Notes under the pieces: generated by a model
What the model saw: the letters and a program-made list of their open reading frames with translations, nothing else
Databases searched by the model: none
What the model was told of the DNA's origin: nothing
In this document: one piece after another, positions 8,669 to 26,403 of the stretch
Numbering within the stretch: position 1 is the first letter of the stretch
Layout of the letters: each line of letters begins with the position of its first letter
DNA from: Halanaerobiales bacterium
GTDB taxonomy: Bacteria; Bacillota; Halanaerobiia; Halanaerobiales; M55B127
Length of the DNA: 35,232 nt
Direction of reading: 5' to 3'
NCBI GenBank assembly: GCA_018334565.1
Contig: JAGXLU010000017.1
Location: 1-35,232, forward strand
Position numbers and translations under genes: made by a program

Positions 8669-9667
8669 ATGGCTCAAAATCAATATATGCAGGTTAAAGA
8701 TATCTTAAGTAAAGCAATTGAACTTAAAAAAACCAATAAATACCAAGAGGCCAAAGCAGTCTTAAATGAGGCTTTAGTAAATAATCCAGGAAATATATAT
8801 GTTGAAGCCAGCCTGGCTGATACCTTATCAAGACTGGGAGAAACCGAAAAAGCTTTACAGCTAGCGGATAAAGTACTTGAAGCAAAACCTAACAATTCAC
8901 GTGCTCTAATAGTTAAAGGCAATATTAGTTTTGCCAAAAGGGAATATGAAAAAGCCCTTGAATTATTCGAACAAGCTCAGTTAAATAACAAGAGTGATTA
9001 TTTAACATCTCGCTTAATCAGGACCTATCTAAAACTTGAAAAATTTGAAGAAGCACGCAGCATCTGCTCAAAAAAATTAGAGCAGTCTCAAAAAAATCTT
9101 CCTTTTCAAAAATTAATGGCAGCTATTTATGAAAAAATGGGCGAAACCAACAAAGCAGCCCAATATTATGATAAATATCTGGATAAGAAACCGAAAGATG
9201 ACTTTGCCTATAAAGAAAAATTAAAATTGAAGATGAAAGATAAAGAACCTGCCAGAGCAGTCAAAGAACTAAAAGCCCTACTCAAAATTAAAAATAAATC
9301 CAATAATGTATTTTTACACCATCTTCTAGCAGAAAAATTAGAAGAAACACATAATGATGAAGAGGCTTTTTTACAATACAAAAAATCTTTAGAAATTGAA
9401 CCCGGCAATGATTTTGCGGTTAAACAGGCCGGTTTTTGTCTTTATAGAATGGGTGAATATGAAAGGGCCCTTGATTATTTAGAAGAAGCCTTCCGAGATG
9501 ACCCCTCTGATTACTATATTAAGACTACCTTAGTCAGTATCTATAAGAATACAGGCCTGATTGAAAAAGGTATTATATTTTTCAAAGATATTATAAAAAA
9601 TAATCAGGGTTATAATAAACTTTGGGGAACAATTAAAAAAATGAATAAATCATTGGGTGATGATTAA
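8669..9667 (+). CDS. TPR-repeat protein, partner of the PglY-PglZ fusion
   Basis: A 332-residue soluble protein built almost entirely of tetratricopeptide repeats. Examples are the helix pairs around KYQEAKAVLNEALVNNPGN, EKALQLADKVLEAKPNN, EYEKALELFEQAQLNN, EAFLQYKKSLEIEPGN and EYERALDYLEEAFRDDPSD, roughly eight repeats. There is no signal peptide, membrane segment or catalytic domain. TPR proteins act as scaffolds for protein-protein contacts, so it may organise or regulate the giant ATPase encoded next. GGGG eight bases upstream supports the ATG. Its stop at 9665-9667 is one base from the start of the giant gene, implying tight translational coupling. The fold is clear; the role is inferred from the neighbour. 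Confidence 0.9.
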   Translation: MAQNQYMQVKDILSKAIELKKTNKYQEAKAVLNEALVNNPGNIYVEASLADTLSRLGETEKALQLADKVLEAKPNNSRALIVKGNISFAKREYEKALELFEQAQLNNKSDYLTSRLIRTYLKLEKFEEARSICSKKLEQSQKNLPFQKLMAAIYEKMGETNKAAQYYDKYLDKKPKDDFAYKEKLKLKMKDKEPARAVKELKALLKIKNKSNNVFLHHLLAEKLEETHNDEEAFLQYKKSLEIEPGNDFAVKQAGFCLYRMGEYERALDYLEEAFRDDPSDYYIKTTLVSIYKNTGLIEKGIIFFKDIIKNNQGYNKLWGTIKKMNKSLGDD

Positions 9668-9668
9668 G

Positions 9669-12600
9669 ATGAGAATTAAAAATCTTGTTAATGTAAAAGA
9701 TGTACGAACCGTTGTTCAGATAGCAGATATTTTGGATCCTAAGTTAAGGGACTTCTTAACTGAAAGTTTTGTAATAACTGATGAGGTAGAAAAGATTCTG
9801 CTTTCATTTTTCAAAGACCTGACCGCTAATCATGGTAAAGGATACTTTATCGAGGGTAACTTTGGTTCTGGTAAATCTCATCTTTTAAGTGTAATCAGCC
9901 TATTGACCAGTTATAATAAATCCTGGGAGCATATTTTAAAACAAAAAAGTAATACCAACAGCCTTAAAAAACTCTCAGAAAAAATCATAGGTAAAAAATA
10001 CATAACTATCAACCTTTCCTTAGTTGAACACTCCAACAAGGAATATTTAGAGGATATTGTAATTGAAGAGCTTATCAACTTTATAAATGAAGATAATAGA
10101 CTGACTGATTTTGATTTTAAGGGAGAATCTGAATTTATAGAAAAGATTTCCACCATTATTATCAATGAACATGCCAATCGGCTCAAAAGTTTTTTAAGAG
10201 AAAACAAAATAACAAAGTCGGAACTCTTTCAACCCGGCCAGCTCTATTTAATAGAAAAATTACTTAATAGATTGAACCTACCATATAGGTTTAATTACAA
10301 CAGACAGCAGATCTTTGCTCAAATTTCTACTATCATAGATAACAACAAATATGATGGTCTAATTATCTTGATTGACGAGCTCTCTGAATTTCTGCGATCA
10401 AAACCGGATGGAAGACGATTTAATGAGGACATCAGGTTCATGCAGTTTTTAGGTGAATATGCCAAACGTAAGCCCTGTTGGGTTTTAGCCAGTCTACAGG
10501 AAGAAATAGAAAAAACCGGTGAAACCACTCCGGAGGCTTTTAATAAGATAAAAGATCGCTATCCAACCCGCTTTTATCTTACCGGCCAGCATATCAAAGA
10601 GTTGATAGACAAACGATTAATCGAATTAAAAGAAGATAAAAAAGCTTTTGTTGAAAAAATCTATCAAGATTATCAGGAATCTTTCCCCCATCTGCCTTTT
10701 CAAAAAAAAGAATTTATTAAACTGTACCCGGTTCATCCTCAGGCCATCGATCTATTAGACAATCTAAAACCGCTTTTTTCTCAGCACCGTGGTATAATAG
10801 ACTTTATCCACTACCAGTTAAAAGGAGACCCCGGTCGTTCAATAGAAGGCATGATGGACCTCTCTGCCGAAAATCTTTTAACAGCTGATAAAATATTCGA
10901 TCATTTTGTAGATAGGATCAGAGAAATGATGGAGACAAGTCCCTTTTATACCAAAGTATATAAGTATTACGAACAGGAAATAGGTTCATTATTAGAAGAG
11001 GGAGAGAAAAATACAGGTTTAAAAATAATCAAACTATTAATTTTATTTGCCATATCTCCCATAGATAAAAAATACAATGTCGAGGAAATTGCCAATATGC
11101 TCTTTTATAAGATTACAGACCTCGATCCTGCCATTAATTATGAATATATAGATGATATTTTAAACAGATTATATCAGCGGGGAGCCTATCTGATAAAAAA
11201 AGAGGCTAAACAAAAAAGATCGAATGTGTATTTTATTGACCTTAAAGCCGATGTAAACTTAATAATAAAACGGCGGACCGAATATATTAAGTCCAATCTT
11301 TTTAAAAATGATAATAGAATATTTACAAAATTGGGTAGACAGGTAAGAGAAAAATTCTTACCCCTAAATAACCTTTTTTCTAACAATAAACAACAGAGAA
11401 CTGTCAGCTGGCAAAATACTGATAGAAAAGGCTTTTTATATTTTTTGCCTATCAGGGATATTTCGATCGATAATATCAACCAAACTGCTCAACATTTGAC
11501 TCATGGAGAAAAAGATTTTATGCTTATAATGAGTTACGCCATGAACATAGAAGACGACAAAGAATACTTAAATAAAGTGCTCCTACCGGAACTAAACGAA
11601 GCAGAAAAGGCATCTTTTGTCTTTTGGATTCCTCAAAAAATAAAAGATAAAGAATTTTTAAAAGATGCTTTGGCCAGAATTATTTTGCTGGAGAAATATG
11701 AAAAAGATAGTTCCAAAACAGGAGAAAAAATTAAAACACAACTTACCAAACAGATTAAAGAAGAGAAGGACAGAATCAGTAAAATTTTTAGGGATGTATA
11801 TTTTAGAGGAGAAATTATCAATGGTTTCAAGGAAAAAGTAATTAATCTGGCTGATCTAGGTTTTCTACCTTTTCACAGATTGATTGATAAAATTGTTGCT
11901 GGACTTTTGGAAGACAAATTTCCTGACCATAAAAAAATCTCTCCTTACCAATCTATTTTATCCACAGCCCAACTAGAGGCTGTTTTAGAGGATTTTATCA
12001 GTGTGGGAGAAATTGAAAATCTTAAAAATATAGACGGTCAGGTCTTAAATGTAATTGATGCCTTTATGAAACCAATGGGTCTGATCAAAAAAAGGAAAAG
12101 TGGCATAAGGTTAAATATAAAACCACATAAAAATCCATTGATCAAGAAATTATTTGAGCTTGTTGAGGAAGACAAAACAGCTATTGATGATATTTATTAT
12201 AAGTTAAGAAAGGGCAGCTATGGTATGAGTAATAACCAGTTTAAGCTGCTTGTTTATTCACTACTTTATTCTGGTTATCTCAGTGCATATAGTGATCATA
12301 AAAAAATAAGTTTAAAAAATTTAAATGCCCGTAACTTTAAGAGAATAAAATACATTGGTTATGGCGAATTAATTGATGAAGATTTCCAAATGGTATTAAG
12401 TAGTTGTTCGTTGCTTCCACCTCGTTATCAAAAAAGGCATTTCACTCTTCCGCTGCAGCACAGCATCTGGCAGCATTTAATCGATAAGAAAAAAGAACTT
12501 AACCAAAGACTGAATAATATGAGGTATCAAGTTGAAAGATTAGAAAGTGATGATGATTTTACTGAATTTGATTTTGCTAATATGATAAATTATATAAACA

Positions 12601-15068
12601 AAGTAGAAAATTTGCTCTCAGAAATTATGGTCAGCTATTCTTCAGAAGAGGGTTTGGAGAGATTTGCGGCTAAATATAGGAATATGCCCAATATCGATTC
12701 ATATCTTGAAAAGTTTGAACAACTCGAATATTTTTTATCAAATAATTTGAACAAATACAAAAAGATACTGAACTACCTAAAACACCCCGAGTTTGATATG
12801 CCCTCAAATCAAAAATATAGCGATCTTTTAGAACTGAAAAAGAATCTAGTAAAAGCAATGAATGACCGAGCTGTTATCTATGATAAAAAATTCTTTGATG
12901 AACTTAATAATAAATTTATAGAATTCAAACAGAGATATATCGAAATATATATTGATGAACACGCCAAACAAAAAGGCAGTGACCATTTTAAAAGTATAAC
13001 GGAAATGCGTACAACAAGAAGTTACCAGGTTTTAAAATCACTGGCTGGTATTGAACTTATCTCTGTTAAAGATGACTTAGTTAAGATAGATCGACTAATA
13101 GCAAAGGCTCTAAGTAAAAGTTGCAGTATAAATCCACAAAGCAGATTACAGGATATACCGATCTGTGAATGCAAGTTTAAACTCGGTCATAAAATTGAAT
13201 TACCCTCTAAAAATAATCTCCAAAAAATTATCGACTCCGGTGTTCAACAGTATATTAACAGTCTAAAAGAGAAAGAACATAAGCAGAGATTAGAAAATTA
13301 TTTAGATAATATGGAGGCTGCTGGTAATAAGAGGTTTGCCCGACCTATTCGTAATCTACTCGCTGTGAAAATTAATAAGAATTTATATAAAAACTTAGAT
13401 AAAATATTAAACCAAAACGTTGTAAAAAGGATCAACTCCGTTTTGTCAGGCGATATCTCACTTATCGAAAGAAATCTGGATGAGCTATATGAAAATCTTA
13501 TCAATAGGAGCTTTTCGCCGACTCAAATTCGGCAGATCTTTAATGAGTGGTTGAAAGGCAGTACTGGACTCGGTCAAAAGACCTATATAAAGGTTAAAGG
13601 CAATTTCGGTCAAGGTTCACAACAAATGACAACAGCCCAGGATAATCTAATATTAATTGATTATATAAAACAAAATTATCCAGAGTTATTAAATTTAATT
13701 GAAAATACTGATTTCAACATTTTTATTAAACTTTTAGCTGTGGTTGTTTGGAAAAATATATATAAAATAGATAGTGGTTTAGAAAGTCTGATAACTAAAA
13801 TCATACCTGAAAACAGTACATTGATTATTGAAGAACTTCAAAGAAACCACAATTTAGAAGATTCTTTCACCGAAATGTTTGAAAGTCTATACACCAGTAA
13901 TCAAAATCAAGCCATCAAAAAGTTAATTACATCTAAGATTGATCAGATTGATCTTTCCAGTCGACTAATTGATCTAATTTCACCGGCCAATTTAGATGAA
14001 GTTATAGAAATTATAGAAATAGAAAAATTATCAACTAAAGTAATCAATAAAGTTTTAATCCAGTTTGTTAAAATGATAGAAAATATTCACCTTAATTATC
14101 AAACAAAAGAAACTCTTATTACACAAACTGAAGATATAAATAAAAAAATAGATGAAAGCCCACTCTCTAAATATAAAAAGGATGCCCTTAATTTGATATT
14201 AAACTACCTTTCTTTAGAAAAGAGTTTTGCTTATCTTGATTCTCAGGATAATTTTAATGATATAAAAGAGTGGAAGGAAGTCTATGTAAACCATTTAGCA
14301 AATCTGGAATTTAACTATTATAAAATTATCCAGCTTTCATCTCAGCTAGATATCACAGATATTATACCACAATCTATAAAGTATAAAAAAACAATTCAGA
14401 CTCTACACAACTACCAGAATCTTTTCAACAACTTCCACGACAGTCGAGATATAATGGGAGAAGACTATGAAAAATTTATGGGTAATAATCTTATATATCT
14501 ACTAAAAGATCGCTATCCTTACTTATTAAAAAAAATGAATACAAAAAAAGGCTACCTAATTCTTTTGGATGGTATGAGATGGGATATCTGGAAGTTGATC
14601 AAAAACGAGATAAACAAAAATCTGCCTCTACGCTTAATTGAAGAAGGTTCAATCTTTGCCCTTAGCCCTACTAATACAGAAACACAATTTGAAGCACTTA
14701 AAAAAGCCGGACAAAACATTAAACTTATCGACCAAAAAGAAGTAAGCGGCTCCTTACAGTCTCTATCTCAAAATAAAAAAACATCTAAAGAAATAATAAA
14801 ATTTTCATTTATCGATGATAAAGTGCACAGTTTCAAGGATAATTACATTGAGTTCTTAAAAGAAATAGTTTTTTTAAATCAAAACCGTTTACTGCCTTTT
14901 TTAGAAAAAATTACTTCCGGTTCAGCTATTTTACTTTTTTCAGACCACGGTTTTAAGATTAATCATGGGTTTAAAGAAGTTAATAAATATGAAGAACCTC
15001 GTTACTTACATGGAGGAGGCTCTTTCCATGAAATCATAGTACCATGGGCTTTTATGTATAAACCTTAA
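9669..15068 (+). CDS. PglY-like P-loop ATPase fused to a PglZ-type phosphatase-fold domain
   Basis: About 1,799 residues, very long for a bacterial protein. N-terminal ATPase: Walker A GNFGSGKSH at about residues 63-71; Walker B LIILIDELSEF with D236-E237; then PTRFYLTGQHIKELIDKRL (~300). This pattern is that of PglY/DUF6079-type ATPases. A likely winged-helix segment lies at ~470-530, followed by a long, mostly helical, lysine- and glutamate-rich middle (~650-1550). The C-terminal ~180 residues look like a PglZ domain of the alkaline phosphatase superfamily: LILLDGMRWD (D1634), SPTNT (candidate nucleophile T1668), LLFSDHGF (D1759, H1760) and YLHGGGSFHE followed by IIVPW (H1781). The metal-site residues therefore look complete. 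The ATG at 9669 is preferred over GTG 9657 and ATG 9660 because GGGTGA is correctly spaced. In BREX/Pgl systems PglY and PglZ are separate proteins; here they are one. No methyltransferase or other BREX gene is in the window. Phage defence is inferred, not shown. Confidence 0.8.
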   Translation: MRIKNLVNVKDVRTVVQIADILDPKLRDFLTESFVITDEVEKILLSFFKDLTANHGKGYFIEGNFGSGKSHLLSVISLLTSYNKSWEHILKQKSNTNSLKKLSEKIIGKKYITINLSLVEHSNKEYLEDIVIEELINFINEDNRLTDFDFKGESEFIEKISTIIINEHANRLKSFLRENKITKSELFQPGQLYLIEKLLNRLNLPYRFNYNRQQIFAQISTIIDNNKYDGLIILIDELSEFLRSKPDGRRFNEDIRFMQFLGEYAKRKPCWVLASLQEEIEKTGETTPEAFNKIKDRYPTRFYLTGQHIKELIDKRLIELKEDKKAFVEKIYQDYQESFPHLPFQKKEFIKLYPVHPQAIDLLDNLKPLFSQHRGIIDFIHYQLKGDPGRSIEGMMDLSAENLLTADKIFDHFVDRIREMMETSPFYTKVYKYYEQEIGSLLEEGEKNTGLKIIKLLILFAISPIDKKYNVEEIANMLFYKITDLDPAINYEYIDDILNRLYQRGAYLIKKEAKQKRSNVYFIDLKADVNLIIKRRTEYIKSNLFKNDNRIFTKLGRQVREKFLPLNNLFSNNKQQRTVSWQNTDRKGFLYFLPIRDISIDNINQTAQHLTHGEKDFMLIMSYAMNIEDDKEYLNKVLLPELNEAEKASFVFWIPQKIKDKEFLKDALARIILLEKYEKDSSKTGEKIKTQLTKQIKEEKDRISKIFRDVYFRGEIINGFKEKVINLADLGFLPFHRLIDKIVAGLLEDKFPDHKKISPYQSILSTAQLEAVLEDFISVGEIENLKNIDGQVLNVIDAFMKPMGLIKKRKSGIRLNIKPHKNPLIKKLFELVEEDKTAIDDIYYKLRKGSYGMSNNQFKLLVYSLLYSGYLSAYSDHKKISLKNLNARNFKRIKYIGYGELIDEDFQMVLSSCSLLPPRYQKRHFTLPLQHSIWQHLIDKKKELNQRLNNMRYQVERLESDDDFTEFDFANMINYINKVENLLSEIMVSYSSEEGLERFAAKYRNMPNIDSYLEKFEQLEYFLSNNLNKYKKILNYLKHPEFDMPSNQKYSDLLELKKNLVKAMNDRAVIYDKKFFDELNNKFIEFKQRYIEIYIDEHAKQKGSDHFKSITEMRTTRSYQVLKSLAGIELISVKDDLVKIDRLIAKALSKSCSINPQSRLQDIPICECKFKLGHKIELPSKNNLQKIIDSGVQQYINSLKEKEHKQRLENYLDNMEAAGNKRFARPIRNLLAVKINKNLYKNLDKILNQNVVKRINSVLSGDISLIERNLDELYENLINRSFSPTQIRQIFNEWLKGSTGLGQKTYIKVKGNFGQGSQQMTTAQDNLILIDYIKQNYPELLNLIENTDFNIFIKLLAVVVWKNIYKIDSGLESLITKIIPENSTLIIEELQRNHNLEDSFTEMFESLYTSNQNQAIKKLITSKIDQIDLSSRLIDLISPANLDEVIEIIEIEKLSTKVINKVLIQFVKMIENIHLNYQTKETLITQTEDINKKIDESPLSKYKKDALNLILNYLSLEKSFAYLDSQDNFNDIKEWKEVYVNHLANLEFNYYKIIQLSSQLDITDIIPQSIKYKKTIQTLHNYQNLFNNFHDSRDIMGEDYEKFMGNNLIYLLKDRYPYLLKKMNTKKGYLILLDGMRWDIWKLIKNEINKNLPLRLIEEGSIFALSPTNTETQFEALKKAGQNIKLIDQKEVSGSLQSLSQNKKTSKEIIKFSFIDDKVHSFKDNYIEFLKEIVFLNQNRLLPFLEKITSGSAILLFSDHGFKINHGFKEVNKYEEPRYLHGGGSFHEIIVPWAFMYKP

Positions 15069-17167: not shown

Positions 17168-17211
17168 ATATCCTATCTAAAACTAAAGATGAAGAAGGGT
17201 TGTATTATATA

Positions 17212-17610
17212 ATGGATAGAAAGAAAAAGGACTTTATTAGAGAATGGACCTATGAAGCTAATAATGATCTGGGCCTGGCTAACTTTGTAATTGATAATGG
17301 TGGTCAATACTATGATTTAGTCTGTTTCCACTGTCAGCAGGCGGCCGAAAAATTTCTTAAGGCTTATATAATCTATCTCAATCTTTATTACAAAAAATCC
17401 CATAATCTAAACTATCTTTTGAATGTAATAAAAAGAAAAAAAGAAATAAGCAAAACTCTTTATAAAAAAGCTGAATTATTAAATTCTTTTTCTGTTGATT
17501 CTCGATACCCTGATCACTGGCATGATCCGGATTTATTAAAAACTAAAGAATGTTTAAAAGCTGCTCGAGATTTTAAATCTTTCGTATATAAGGATCTTGA
17601 AAAACTTTAA
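17212..17610 (+). CDS. HEPN-domain protein
   Basis: 132 residues, nearly all one HEPN domain: EANNDLGLANFVID, then FHCQQAAEKFLKAYI (the classic helix-2 signature), KSHNLNYLL, and SRYPDHWH, which contains an R-x5-H arrangement like the HEPN RNase motif (R-x4-6-H). HEPN proteins are often the toxin of MNT-HEPN pairs or accessory RNases; here no nucleotidyltransferase gene adjoins. A frame extension to TTG 17200 is possible, but GAAGAAGGG would then touch the start codon, so ATG 17212 is used even though its spacing is long. Toxin activity is an inference. Many solitary HEPN proteins have unknown roles. Confidence 0.82.
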   Translation: MDRKKKDFIREWTYEANNDLGLANFVIDNGGQYYDLVCFHCQQAAEKFLKAYIIYLNLYYKKSHNLNYLLNVIKRKKEISKTLYKKAELLNSFSVDSRYPDHWHDPDLLKTKECLKAARDFKSFVYKDLEKL

Positions 17611-18648: not shown

Positions 18649-19035
18649 ATGGGGAAAGCAGAAAATATTCTGGATTCAATGTACAGTAAACTTGATGACT
18701 TTCTGAAAACTGAAACTGTTGTTGGTGAACCAATTGTAGTAGATGATATTAAATTGCTTCCGATCATCACAGCATCATTTGGCTTAGGTGGAGGGTTTGG
18801 TCAAGATGAAGATGATTCTTCTGAAGGTGCTGGTGGAGGGCTAGGTTGTAAGATAACTCCAGATGCTATCTTAGTAGTGAAAGACGGACAAGTAGAAATG
18901 GTTCCTATCAAGAAAAAAGGTTCTTTGGAAAAACTTTTTGAAAAGATGCCAACCTTGGTTGAAAAATTAAGTAAAATAAAAGAAGAGAAAAAAGCAGATC
19001 ATCCAAAAGAAAAAGAAGAAAAAGAATCTGAATAA
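18649..19035 (+). CDS. gerW: GerW (YtfJ) family sporulation protein
   Basis: A 128-residue member of the GerW/YtfJ family. Recognisable parts are the N-terminal amphipathic helix (ILDSMYSKLDDFLKTETVVG), the sequence EPIVVDDIKLLPIITASFGL, the glycine-rich GLGGGFGQ and GAGGGLGCKITPDAILVV, and EMVPIKKKG. The tail is very lysine/glutamate-rich. In Bacillus this protein localises to the inner spore membrane and supports germination; homologues also exist outside classical spore formers, so presence alone does not prove sporulation. AAAAAGGAGTG stands ahead of the ATG. The 242-bp space from DUF2953 holds the hairpin and nothing else recognised. Confidence 0.93.
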   Translation: MGKAENILDSMYSKLDDFLKTETVVGEPIVVDDIKLLPIITASFGLGGGFGQDEDDSSEGAGGGLGCKITPDAILVVKDGQVEMVPIKKKGSLEKLFEKMPTLVEKLSKIKEEKKADHPKEKEEKESE

Positions 19036-19101
19036 ATAACTTCCTAAATAAACAATGGCTATTTTATATTTGATATTTTATTCATTACTTTTCAAAATTT
19101 C

Positions 19102-19130
19102 TTGTAAAATATTTTAAGTTATGTTATACT
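19102..19130 (+). promoter_or_regulatory. Promoter for the tandem B12 riboswitch / cobO transcript
   Basis: TTGTAA (19102-19107), 17-bp spacer, TATACT (19125-19130) with a TG extended -10 element (TGTTATACT). It lies about 25 bp before the first aptamer, giving a transcript that starts close to the P1 stem. No convincing second promoter was found between the two aptamers. Confidence 0.6.
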
Positions 19131-19155
19131 AATTTAAAATTAAATATGATAAATT

Positions 19156-19306
19156 CAATTTTGGTTTCATGATGAATTAAAAAGGAAAACGGTGCAAATC
19201 CGTTGCTGTAGTCGCAGCTGTAAGCGGTATTTAAAAAGGTCTTCACTGCTTTTAGTGGGAAGGAGATCTTGTTGGAAATCGTAAGCCAGAAGACTTGCCA
19301 CAATTG
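19156..19306 (+). ncRNA. Cobalamin riboswitch aptamer, copy 1
   Basis: Contains the conserved cobalamin-aptamer blocks in order: AAAAAGGAAAACGGTGCAAA, then TCCGTTGCTG, TCGCAGCTGTAA, the TCACTG...TAGTGGGAAGG arm, and the B12-box-like AAGCCAGAAGACTTGCC. A P1 stem can be drawn between 19156-19164 and 19298-19306 (one mismatch). A following small hairpin (TTCTC/GAGAA, 19319-19335) is in the place of the regulatory P13 stem. Binding adenosyl- or hydroxocobalamin is expected to favour the terminator at 19394. Confidence 0.93.
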
Positions 19307-19393
19307 TTTACATCTTTATTCTCCGAACTAGAGAAAGCAGATGGGAGTATAGTATGAGTTTATATAATCATACAATTAAAATTCAAAACCATA

Positions 19394-19430
19394 AGCTGCC
19401 TTTCATTTCGGGAAGGCAGCTATTTTTATT
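19394..19430 (+). terminator. Intrinsic terminator of riboswitch copy 1
   Basis: An 11-bp GC-rich stem (AGCTGCCTTTC with GGAAGGCAGCT, one G-T pair), six-base loop, followed by ATTTTTATTT. It serves as the expression platform of the first aptamer. Confidence 0.88.
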
Positions 19431-19464
19431 TGCATATAATTATTAAAAACTAAATAAATAATTG

Positions 19465-19618
19465 ATAAAAGTTCTCTCTAGATGGGACATTAAAAAGGAA
19501 AACGGTGCAAATCCGTTGCTGTAGTCGCAGCTGTAAACGGTATTTTAAAAGATTTTCACTGCTTTTAGTGGGAAGAAGATCTTACTGGAAAACCGTAAGC
19601 CAGAAGACTTGCTTTTAT
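19465..19618 (+). ncRNA. Cobalamin riboswitch aptamer, copy 2
   Basis: A second complete aptamer directly downstream of the first one's terminator. It shares an unbroken 48-nt identical core with copy 1 (19177-19224 against 19490-19537). The TCACTGCTTTTAGTGGGAAG arm and the GTAAGCCAGAAGACTTGC box are also identical. A 7-bp P1 can be drawn between ATAAAAG (19465-19471) and CTTTTAT (19612-19618). The P1 stems and the sequences after the B12 box differ completely between copies, so the aptamer core is duplicated and the flanks have diverged. Confidence 0.93.
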
Positions 19619-19720
19619 TATTTACTTCACTTACTCCGACTCAGAGAACCGTGAGGTTAACCATTTTAAGTAATAATATAATTTGTTTTATAATAATATT
19701 ATATTAGATAATGGTTAATT

Positions 19721-19757
19721 GAGCTGTTCATAATCTAAGAACAGTTCTTTTTTTATT
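19721..19757 (+). terminator. Intrinsic terminator of riboswitch copy 2
   Basis: A 9-bp stem GAGCTGTTC/GAACAGTTC (one G-T pair), 9-nt loop, followed by a run of seven T. Upstream, GGTTAACCATT (around 19655) can pair with AATGGTTAA (19709-19717) just before it, a possible competing stem in the switch. It lies 63 bp before cobO. Confidence 0.85.
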
Positions 19758-19819
19758 TATGTAAAAAATATTTTGATTATTAGATCATATGATTTAATAA
19801 ATTTTAGGAGGTTTATTAT

Positions 19820-20332
19820 ATGAAAGGTATGGTTCAAGTATATACAGGTAATGGCAAGGGTAAGACGACTTCAGCTTTAGGACTTGCTATACGCGCGGTT
19901 GGAGCAGGTTTGAAGGTATTTATTGGACAGTTTGCCAAAGGAAGAAAATATAGCGAACTTAAAAGTCTAAAAAAAATTGGAAATATTAAAGTCCAACAAT
20001 ATGGGCAAAAATACTTTATCAAGAACAGTCCAAATGATAATGACATTAAATCAGCTAAAAAAGGTTTCAATAAAATCAAACAAATTTTAAAAAATGGTGA
20101 TTACGATCTTGTTATTCTTGACGAAGCGAATATAGCTACATTTTATGAATTATTTACAGTAGAAGAACTAATTAAAGCTATTCAAAATAGATCGAAAAAT
20201 GTTGAGGTAGTTATTACAGGTAGGATGGCAGACAGTAAATTAATTGAATTTGCAGATCTAGTTACCGAAATGAAAGAAATCAAGCATTATTACCAAAAGG
20301 GTATAATGGCCAGAACCGGTATAGAAAAATAA
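19820..20332 (+). CDS. cobO: Cob(I)yrinic acid a,c-diamide adenosyltransferase
   Basis: A 170-residue member of the CobA/CobO/BtuR family, which transfers the adenosyl group of ATP to the cobalt of reduced corrinoids to make the adenosylcobalamin form. The P-loop YTGNGKGKTTSALG (residues 8-21) is the family signature. GQFAKG, DYDLVILDEANIA and VEVVITGR are also diagnostic. Its size is normal, if slightly short. AGGAGG precedes the ATG. It is the only gene behind two cobalamin riboswitches, so expression should fall when cobalamin is plentiful. No other corrinoid gene lies in the window, so it may serve salvage of imported corrinoids. Confidence 0.95.
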   Translation: MKGMVQVYTGNGKGKTTSALGLAIRAVGAGLKVFIGQFAKGRKYSELKSLKKIGNIKVQQYGQKYFIKNSPNDNDIKSAKKGFNKIKQILKNGDYDLVILDEANIATFYELFTVEELIKAIQNRSKNVEVVITGRMADSKLIEFADLVTEMKEIKHYYQKGIMARTGIEK

Positions 20333-26049: not shown

Positions 26050-26403
26050 AAACAATTTAAGTCTAATTGGCATTGCGATTTTCTACATTCACATAATAGA
26101 CATCACTGTCTTAAAATGTTAGTACGAAACTGGAAGGCGTTAATGTTGTTAGGCTTAATGAAGCCTATACTAGTGGATGTAGTGCTGTTGAATTATAAAA
26201 AAATTAATAAATCAAATCATAATAAATCTCGTAGAGTTCATAGAGGTTTGTTTAAAAATAAAAAGACCACCATTAATAGTGATATTAACGGTAGTCTTAA
26301 TATATTAAGAAAACATTTGAATGATAAATGTATTCCTGAACTCATTAAACAAGTTAGGGATAATAGGGTTGTGGATCCCCCAAAACGAATAAGTGTTGCC
26401 TAG
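26050..26403 (+). pseudogene. IS605-type TnpB remnant, frameshifted
   Basis: The C-terminal third of a TnpB/OrfB nuclease spread over two frames. One frame gives FLHSHNRHHCLKML (resembling the conserved F-V-Q-I-P-H-x-R segment). Another gives KLEGVNVVRLNEAYTSGCSAVEL to a stop near 26204. The first frame resumes with NKSRRVHRGLF, NSDINGSLNILRKHL (the last RuvC Asp, DINGSLN) and RVVDPPKRISVA to the stop. At least two frameshifts and loss of the N-terminal two thirds make it inactive. The 95-residue open frame from ATG 26116 is therefore not a genuine gene. Confidence 0.82.

Follow-up and report, generated by a model that had tools for sequence, protein, structure and literature searches.

Two cobalamin riboswitches in series in the leader of a cobO gene of a Halanaerobiales bacterium, and a relative with one

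The leader of a cobO gene in a bacterium of the order Halanaerobiales carries two complete cobalamin riboswitch aptamers, each followed by an intrinsic terminator of its own. It is likely that they act as independent riboswitches of the adenosylcobalamin (AdoCbl) type placed in series, which would provide end-product feedback made tighter by repetition. A member of the same genus, here called G004, has the orthologous gene behind a single riboswitch, and comparison of the two leaders suggests how the second copy may have been added. The features lie in a 35,232-nt stretch of DNA, which was analysed whole and is referred to as the window. They are, in order:

19102..19130, + strand: predicted promoter 5′ of copy 1 (TTGTAA, 17 nt, TATACT, with TG before the -10 box; promoter scan)
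19145..19316, + strand: cobalamin riboswitch aptamer copy 1, probably ancestral (RF00174, 94.5 bits, E = 1.7e-22; full-length alignment with the single leader of G004)
19319..19335, + strand: presumed P13 hairpin of copy 1 (fold -2.4 kcal/mol)
19394..19421, + strand: intrinsic terminator 1, followed by a T-run (11 pairs; terminator scan)
19435..19440, + strand: TATAAT between the copies, a relic or active -10 box without a -35 box (likeness to the -10 region of copy 1)
19452..19630, + strand: cobalamin riboswitch aptamer copy 2, probably a duplicate (RF00174, 100.4 bits, E = 3.6e-24; 80% identical to copy 1)
19632..19648, + strand: presumed P13 hairpin of copy 2 (weak, fold -0.6 kcal/mol)
19721..19747, + strand: intrinsic terminator 2, followed by seven T (9 pairs; shuffle test; sequence unrelated to terminator 1)
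19820..20332, + strand: cobO/cobA, corrinoid adenosyltransferase, 170 aa (PF02572, TIGR00708)

Two Complete Aptamers and One Gene

A search of the whole window against Rfam 15 (cmscan) gave exactly two matches, both to RF00174, on the + strand and full length (model positions 1-189), which is what the initial annotation had expected of a covariance-model scan. Both copies score far above the gathering score of the family (31.5 bits). They are arranged head to tail with a gap of 135 nt, and the ORF list contains no frame of 90 aa or more between them. The longest exact matches common to the two are 48, 21 and 19 nt, in agreement with the identical core of 48 nt and two further identical blocks described at the outset. 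These blocks lie within two ungapped repeats, one of 103 nt with 93% and one of 39 nt with 82% identity; over the aligned columns of the aptamers, identity is 80%.

The 51 consensus pairs were compared on the Rfam alignments. In both copies 36 of them are standard, with 26 unchanged, six changed on both sides and four on one side; seven are non-standard or gapped, identically in both copies, and each of the other eight is standard in at most one of the copies. The two-sided changes are located in the outer stem and the adjoining hairpin, where the copies diverge most, and the differences between the P1 stems, which had been noted at the outset, are paired changes. With G004 added to the comparison, 33 of 49 pairs are standard in all three aptamers, and two-sided changes between standard pairs are found at 10 of the 49. 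Since several of the paired positions that differ do so on both sides, the folds of both copies look maintained at the level of sequence.

Cobalamin riboswitches form a kissing loop between L5 and L13. The hairpins that follow the two aptamers, at 19319..19335 and 19632..19648, are what we take to be P13, and the L5-L13 duplex, computed without a control, comes to -3.1 kcal/mol for copy 1, -6.3 for copy 2 and -4.2 for G004.

The one gene downstream is cobO, as first named: its product matches PF02572 (CobA_CobO_BtuR) with 215.1 bits (E = 9.8e-64, cut-off 25.7) and TIGR00708 (cobA) with 178.8 bits (cut-off 167.75). The assembly to which the window belongs is 2.16 Mb in 94 contigs and has three RF00174 matches, the third of which lies on contig C9 before a cobU-cobQ-cbiB-cobT-cobS gene string. 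A second cobO, on contig C76, has no riboswitch match within 1,000 nt upstream. Elsewhere in the window, positions 17200-17610 encode a HEPN-domain protein (PF05168) with a counterpart at the same place in G004, and positions 9657-15068 an 1803-aa protein with matches to DUF6079 (PF19557) and, in PADLOC, to BrxC/PglY-like proteins; by eye its end resembles PglZ-like proteins, so that it is possibly a BREX-like fusion. A 95-aa frame at 26116-26403 has no Pfam match and recalls, by eye, the end of a transposon-type protein.

Terminators and the Switching Region

That each aptamer has a terminator of its own was part of the original proposal and is borne out by folding. With flanks, terminator 1 folds at -18.7 kcal/mol (z -5.80) and terminator 2 at -11.5 kcal/mol (z -4.39), with 0 of 200 shuffles as good in either case; the hairpins themselves have -17.7 and -10.3 kcal/mol. 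The terminator scan accepts loops of up to 8 and therefore does not list terminator 2, whose loop is 9. The expression platforms differ between the copies, again as described earlier: when the two platforms are aligned with each other, 14 of 300 shuffles equal or exceed the best score. The platform of G004 aligns with that of copy 1 better than any of 300 shuffles, whereas its alignment with that of copy 2 is not convincing (11 of 300 as good).

Pairing of the 3′ arm of P13 with the 5′ arm of the terminator is no better than in shuffles for copy 1 (1009 of 2000) or copy 2 (1008 of 2000), and in G004 it is equalled in 216 of 2000. As the antiterminator pairing of the two copies is not above chance, the switching step rests on the behaviour of the family.

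A mobile insertion was considered as the source of terminator 2 and is unsupported, with one short match only elsewhere in the genome (query 33-58, 93%). Positions 19354-19446 hold a 30-codon ATG frame, with GGGAG in front, that overlaps terminator 1. It was set aside as a leader peptide: it runs through the terminator and, by eye, there is no ATG at that place in the G004 leader.

A Proposed Series of Two OFF Switches

AdoCbl is the ligand of this type of riboswitch, and the direction of control is OFF, as known from the behaviour of the family. We infer that the same ligand and direction hold here, and likewise co-transcription, the exchange of structures and a changed dose response. Both copies would be carried on one transcript from the promoter upstream of copy 1. 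The stricter off-switch suggested in the initial annotation is consistent with the arrangement, and the serial reading needs such a transcript. Each aptamer would bind AdoCbl, and in the bound state its own terminator would form, by an exchange between P13, antiterminator and terminator. RNA polymerase would thus have to escape two B12-controlled stops in a row before reaching cobO. As the cobO enzyme makes the ligand, the control would be end-product feedback, and the repetition may render it tighter and somewhat steeper, or “pseudo-cooperative”. In ideal arithmetic, two equal switches in series have a 10-90% range of 40-fold versus 81-fold for one, a midpoint at 0.41 of K, and the leak is squared.

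Origin of the Second Copy

No RF00174 pair was found on one contig in any of the four other genomes of the genus, and the only assembly to show the tandem is a fragmented one. The cobO of G004 is 74% identical to that of the window and has one riboswitch, 144 nt upstream. Gene order is the same in both genomes (HEPN protein, unnamed protein, YtfJ, leader, cobO), the neighbours in G004 having been named by their resemblance to the window's proteins. The start of a further cobO relative, 84% identical over 32 residues, was found at a contig end (L022 1-96, G001:C224), and that contig has no riboswitch match.

The G004 leader aligns with copy 1 from the TTGTAA of the promoter to the T-run of the terminator, with 249 identities in 344 columns and a score of 287, where the best of 100 shuffles reached 50; the promoter hexamers and their spacing are identical. 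The likeness of copy 2 to copy 1 is confined to a stretch that begins near the -10 box and ends with the P13 hairpin; the terminator of copy 2 is unrelated. Among the aptamers, the two copies are closest (80%), followed by copy 1 and G004 (72%) and by copy 2 and G004 (68%). Because G004 matches copy 1 from promoter to terminator and copy 2 matches over the shorter stretch only, copy 1 would represent the ancestral state of the leader, and its sensor was probably duplicated later to give copy 2. The initial annotation had proposed that the aptamer was duplicated and its switching part diverged, and G004 lends this support and gives it a direction, with copy 1 as the older and copy 2 as the addition. 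The riboswitch on C9 was rejected as the source of copy 2, being 48-49% identical to either copy. Four minus-strand loci (G001_C192, G004_C18, G002_C101 and G003_C46), which had been compared in the wrong orientation, were left out of these identities.

The identities suggest either that the duplication took place after the split from G004 or that the copies were kept alike by gene conversion. In the mechanism proposed here, the part from about the -10 box to P13 would have been duplicated after the split from this close relative and would have come to stand before a different terminator. A more specific version holds that the duplication is young, that the sensor was copied to a place 3′ of its terminator, where it was coupled to another one, and that the two copies therefore have different set-points; this we hold only tentatively.

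Alternative Readings

The TATAAT at 19435 may be a second promoter. The duplication would then have included the -10 box of copy 1, and copy 2 would have its own transcript start at about 19447; it would mainly control cobO, while copy 1 would give rise to a short terminated RNA or an extra, doubly controlled transcript. The motif stands approximately in the place of the copy 1 -10 box, 17 versus 20 nt before the Rfam match, and 16 of the 20 bases from TATAAT onwards match those from the copy 1 -10 box (0.0013 by mono-shuffle). However, a search for a -35 box at spacings of 15-20 found 0 to 3 of 6 bases (best 3/6), the nearby TG is one base off the place of an extended -10 box, and the consensus promoter scan lists nothing on the + strand in 19422-19451. 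The motif is also common, occurring in 11% of 31-nt stretches of 19001-19820, and 6.7% of shuffles place a TATAAT in the gap between the copies. Given the missing -35 box and this base rate, a relic is more likely than an active promoter, and transcription from two promoters is on the whole rather unlikely.

With different terminators and P1/P2 stems, the copies may instead respond to the same ligand at different half-points, so that the response would be graded, in two steps, and not steeper. The platforms are unrelated after P13, and the hairpin energies differ both for the terminators (-17.7 versus -10.3 kcal/mol) and for P13 (-2.4 versus -0.6), but of two serial OFF switches the more sensitive would be expected to dominate, which makes a two-step response doubtful. 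It is unlikely that the duplication is neutral, with one copy sufficing and the other persisting by chance until it decays: the absence of the tandem from G004 and its rarity in the order are consistent with this, yet both copies retain high full-length scores and two-sided pair changes. That one riboswitch was repeated by the assembly is highly improbable, since even in an assembly fragmented into 94 contigs such an error would have to reconcile copies that are 80% identical, share no run longer than 48 nt and end in different terminators. Two AdoCbl switches acting in series thus remain the preferred reading.

Occurrence of Cobalamin Riboswitch Doublets

Across the order, 36 of 38 genomes together contain 100 RF00174 matches, and no two of these on the same strand are closer than 3,112 nt except the window pair, with its gap of 135 nt. 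A riboswitch lies within 1,000 nt upstream of seven of the 36 cobO matches in these 38 genomes, single in six cases and double in the window. The arrangement had been called unusual for a single small gene. This applies to the doubling, which precedes cobO only here in the order, but not to riboswitch control as such, with six other cases among the 36 cobO matches.

Scanning all 80 named loci around cobO relatives, with up to 3 kb of upstream sequence covered and often less, revealed a same-strand upstream riboswitch in ten: four are single (L053, which appears to be the G004 locus, L067, L090 and L099) and six are double (L063, L071, L081, L082, L089 and L118, at about 170-930 in each). The six doublet loci are labelled Desulfobacterales, Desulfobacteraceae or Candidatus Desulfaltia and resemble the window in having two RF00174 matches 54-260 nt apart with cobO in the gene string. 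Unlike in the window, a gene for a TonB-dependent receptor stands between the pair and cobO in all six. The terminator scan of three of them (L081, L089, L118) lists a terminator-like hairpin behind the first aptamer but not behind the second, whereas the window has both; these may be mixed pairs, acting on transcription and translation.

In a survey of 398 genomes of the phylum, in which six candidates per genome were scored and at most six matches per genome listed, at least one further doublet was seen by eye among the matches listed (G112:C45; L161 545-1007). It consists of two RF00174 matches 85 nt apart with a terminator-like hairpin after each, like the window pair, but precedes a predicted transporter with DUF2162. 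Together with the six cobO-string loci, this makes seven doublets beyond that of the window.

Comparison with Known Tandem Riboswitches

Tandem riboswitches for the same ligand have been termed pseudo-cooperative in the accessible text of Sherlock et al. (2022, PMC9481103), which reports 26 AdoCbl doublets and excludes gaps above 300 nt or with an ORF. The view that tandems are uncommon for cobalamin was therefore right, though the arrangement has, by that text, already been described. The window pair has two complete aptamers of the same class, a gap of 135 nt (≤300) and no intervening ORF of 90 aa or more, with a platform for each aptamer in the form of two terminators (z -5.80 and -4.39). 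It thus resembles the AdoCbl doublets as that text presents them: two same-class aptamers with their own platforms, less than 300 nt apart, with no large ORF between and one gene downstream. The doublets are counted there, but the accessible text does not give their genes and taxa, and so does not tell whether the present locus overlaps with them.

Another point of comparison is the metE SAM-I/AdoCbl tandem (Sudarsan et al. 2006), following its description in PMC9481103 and PMC9600662. Like the arrangement proposed for the window, it combines two OFF switches in series within a leader; it reads two ligands, as a NOR gate, whereas the window pair would read one ligand twice.

The window pair is thus of a kind already known, and what it adds is a visible single-copy relative. 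Steeper control is the usual explanation for tandem riboswitches with a common ligand, but it is not often that one can see how a single copy became two. The leaders of G004 and the window have the same gene, upstream promoter and first terminator, without or with a second sensor. Their direct comparison therefore makes the question of what a second copy adds testable with two natural leaders.
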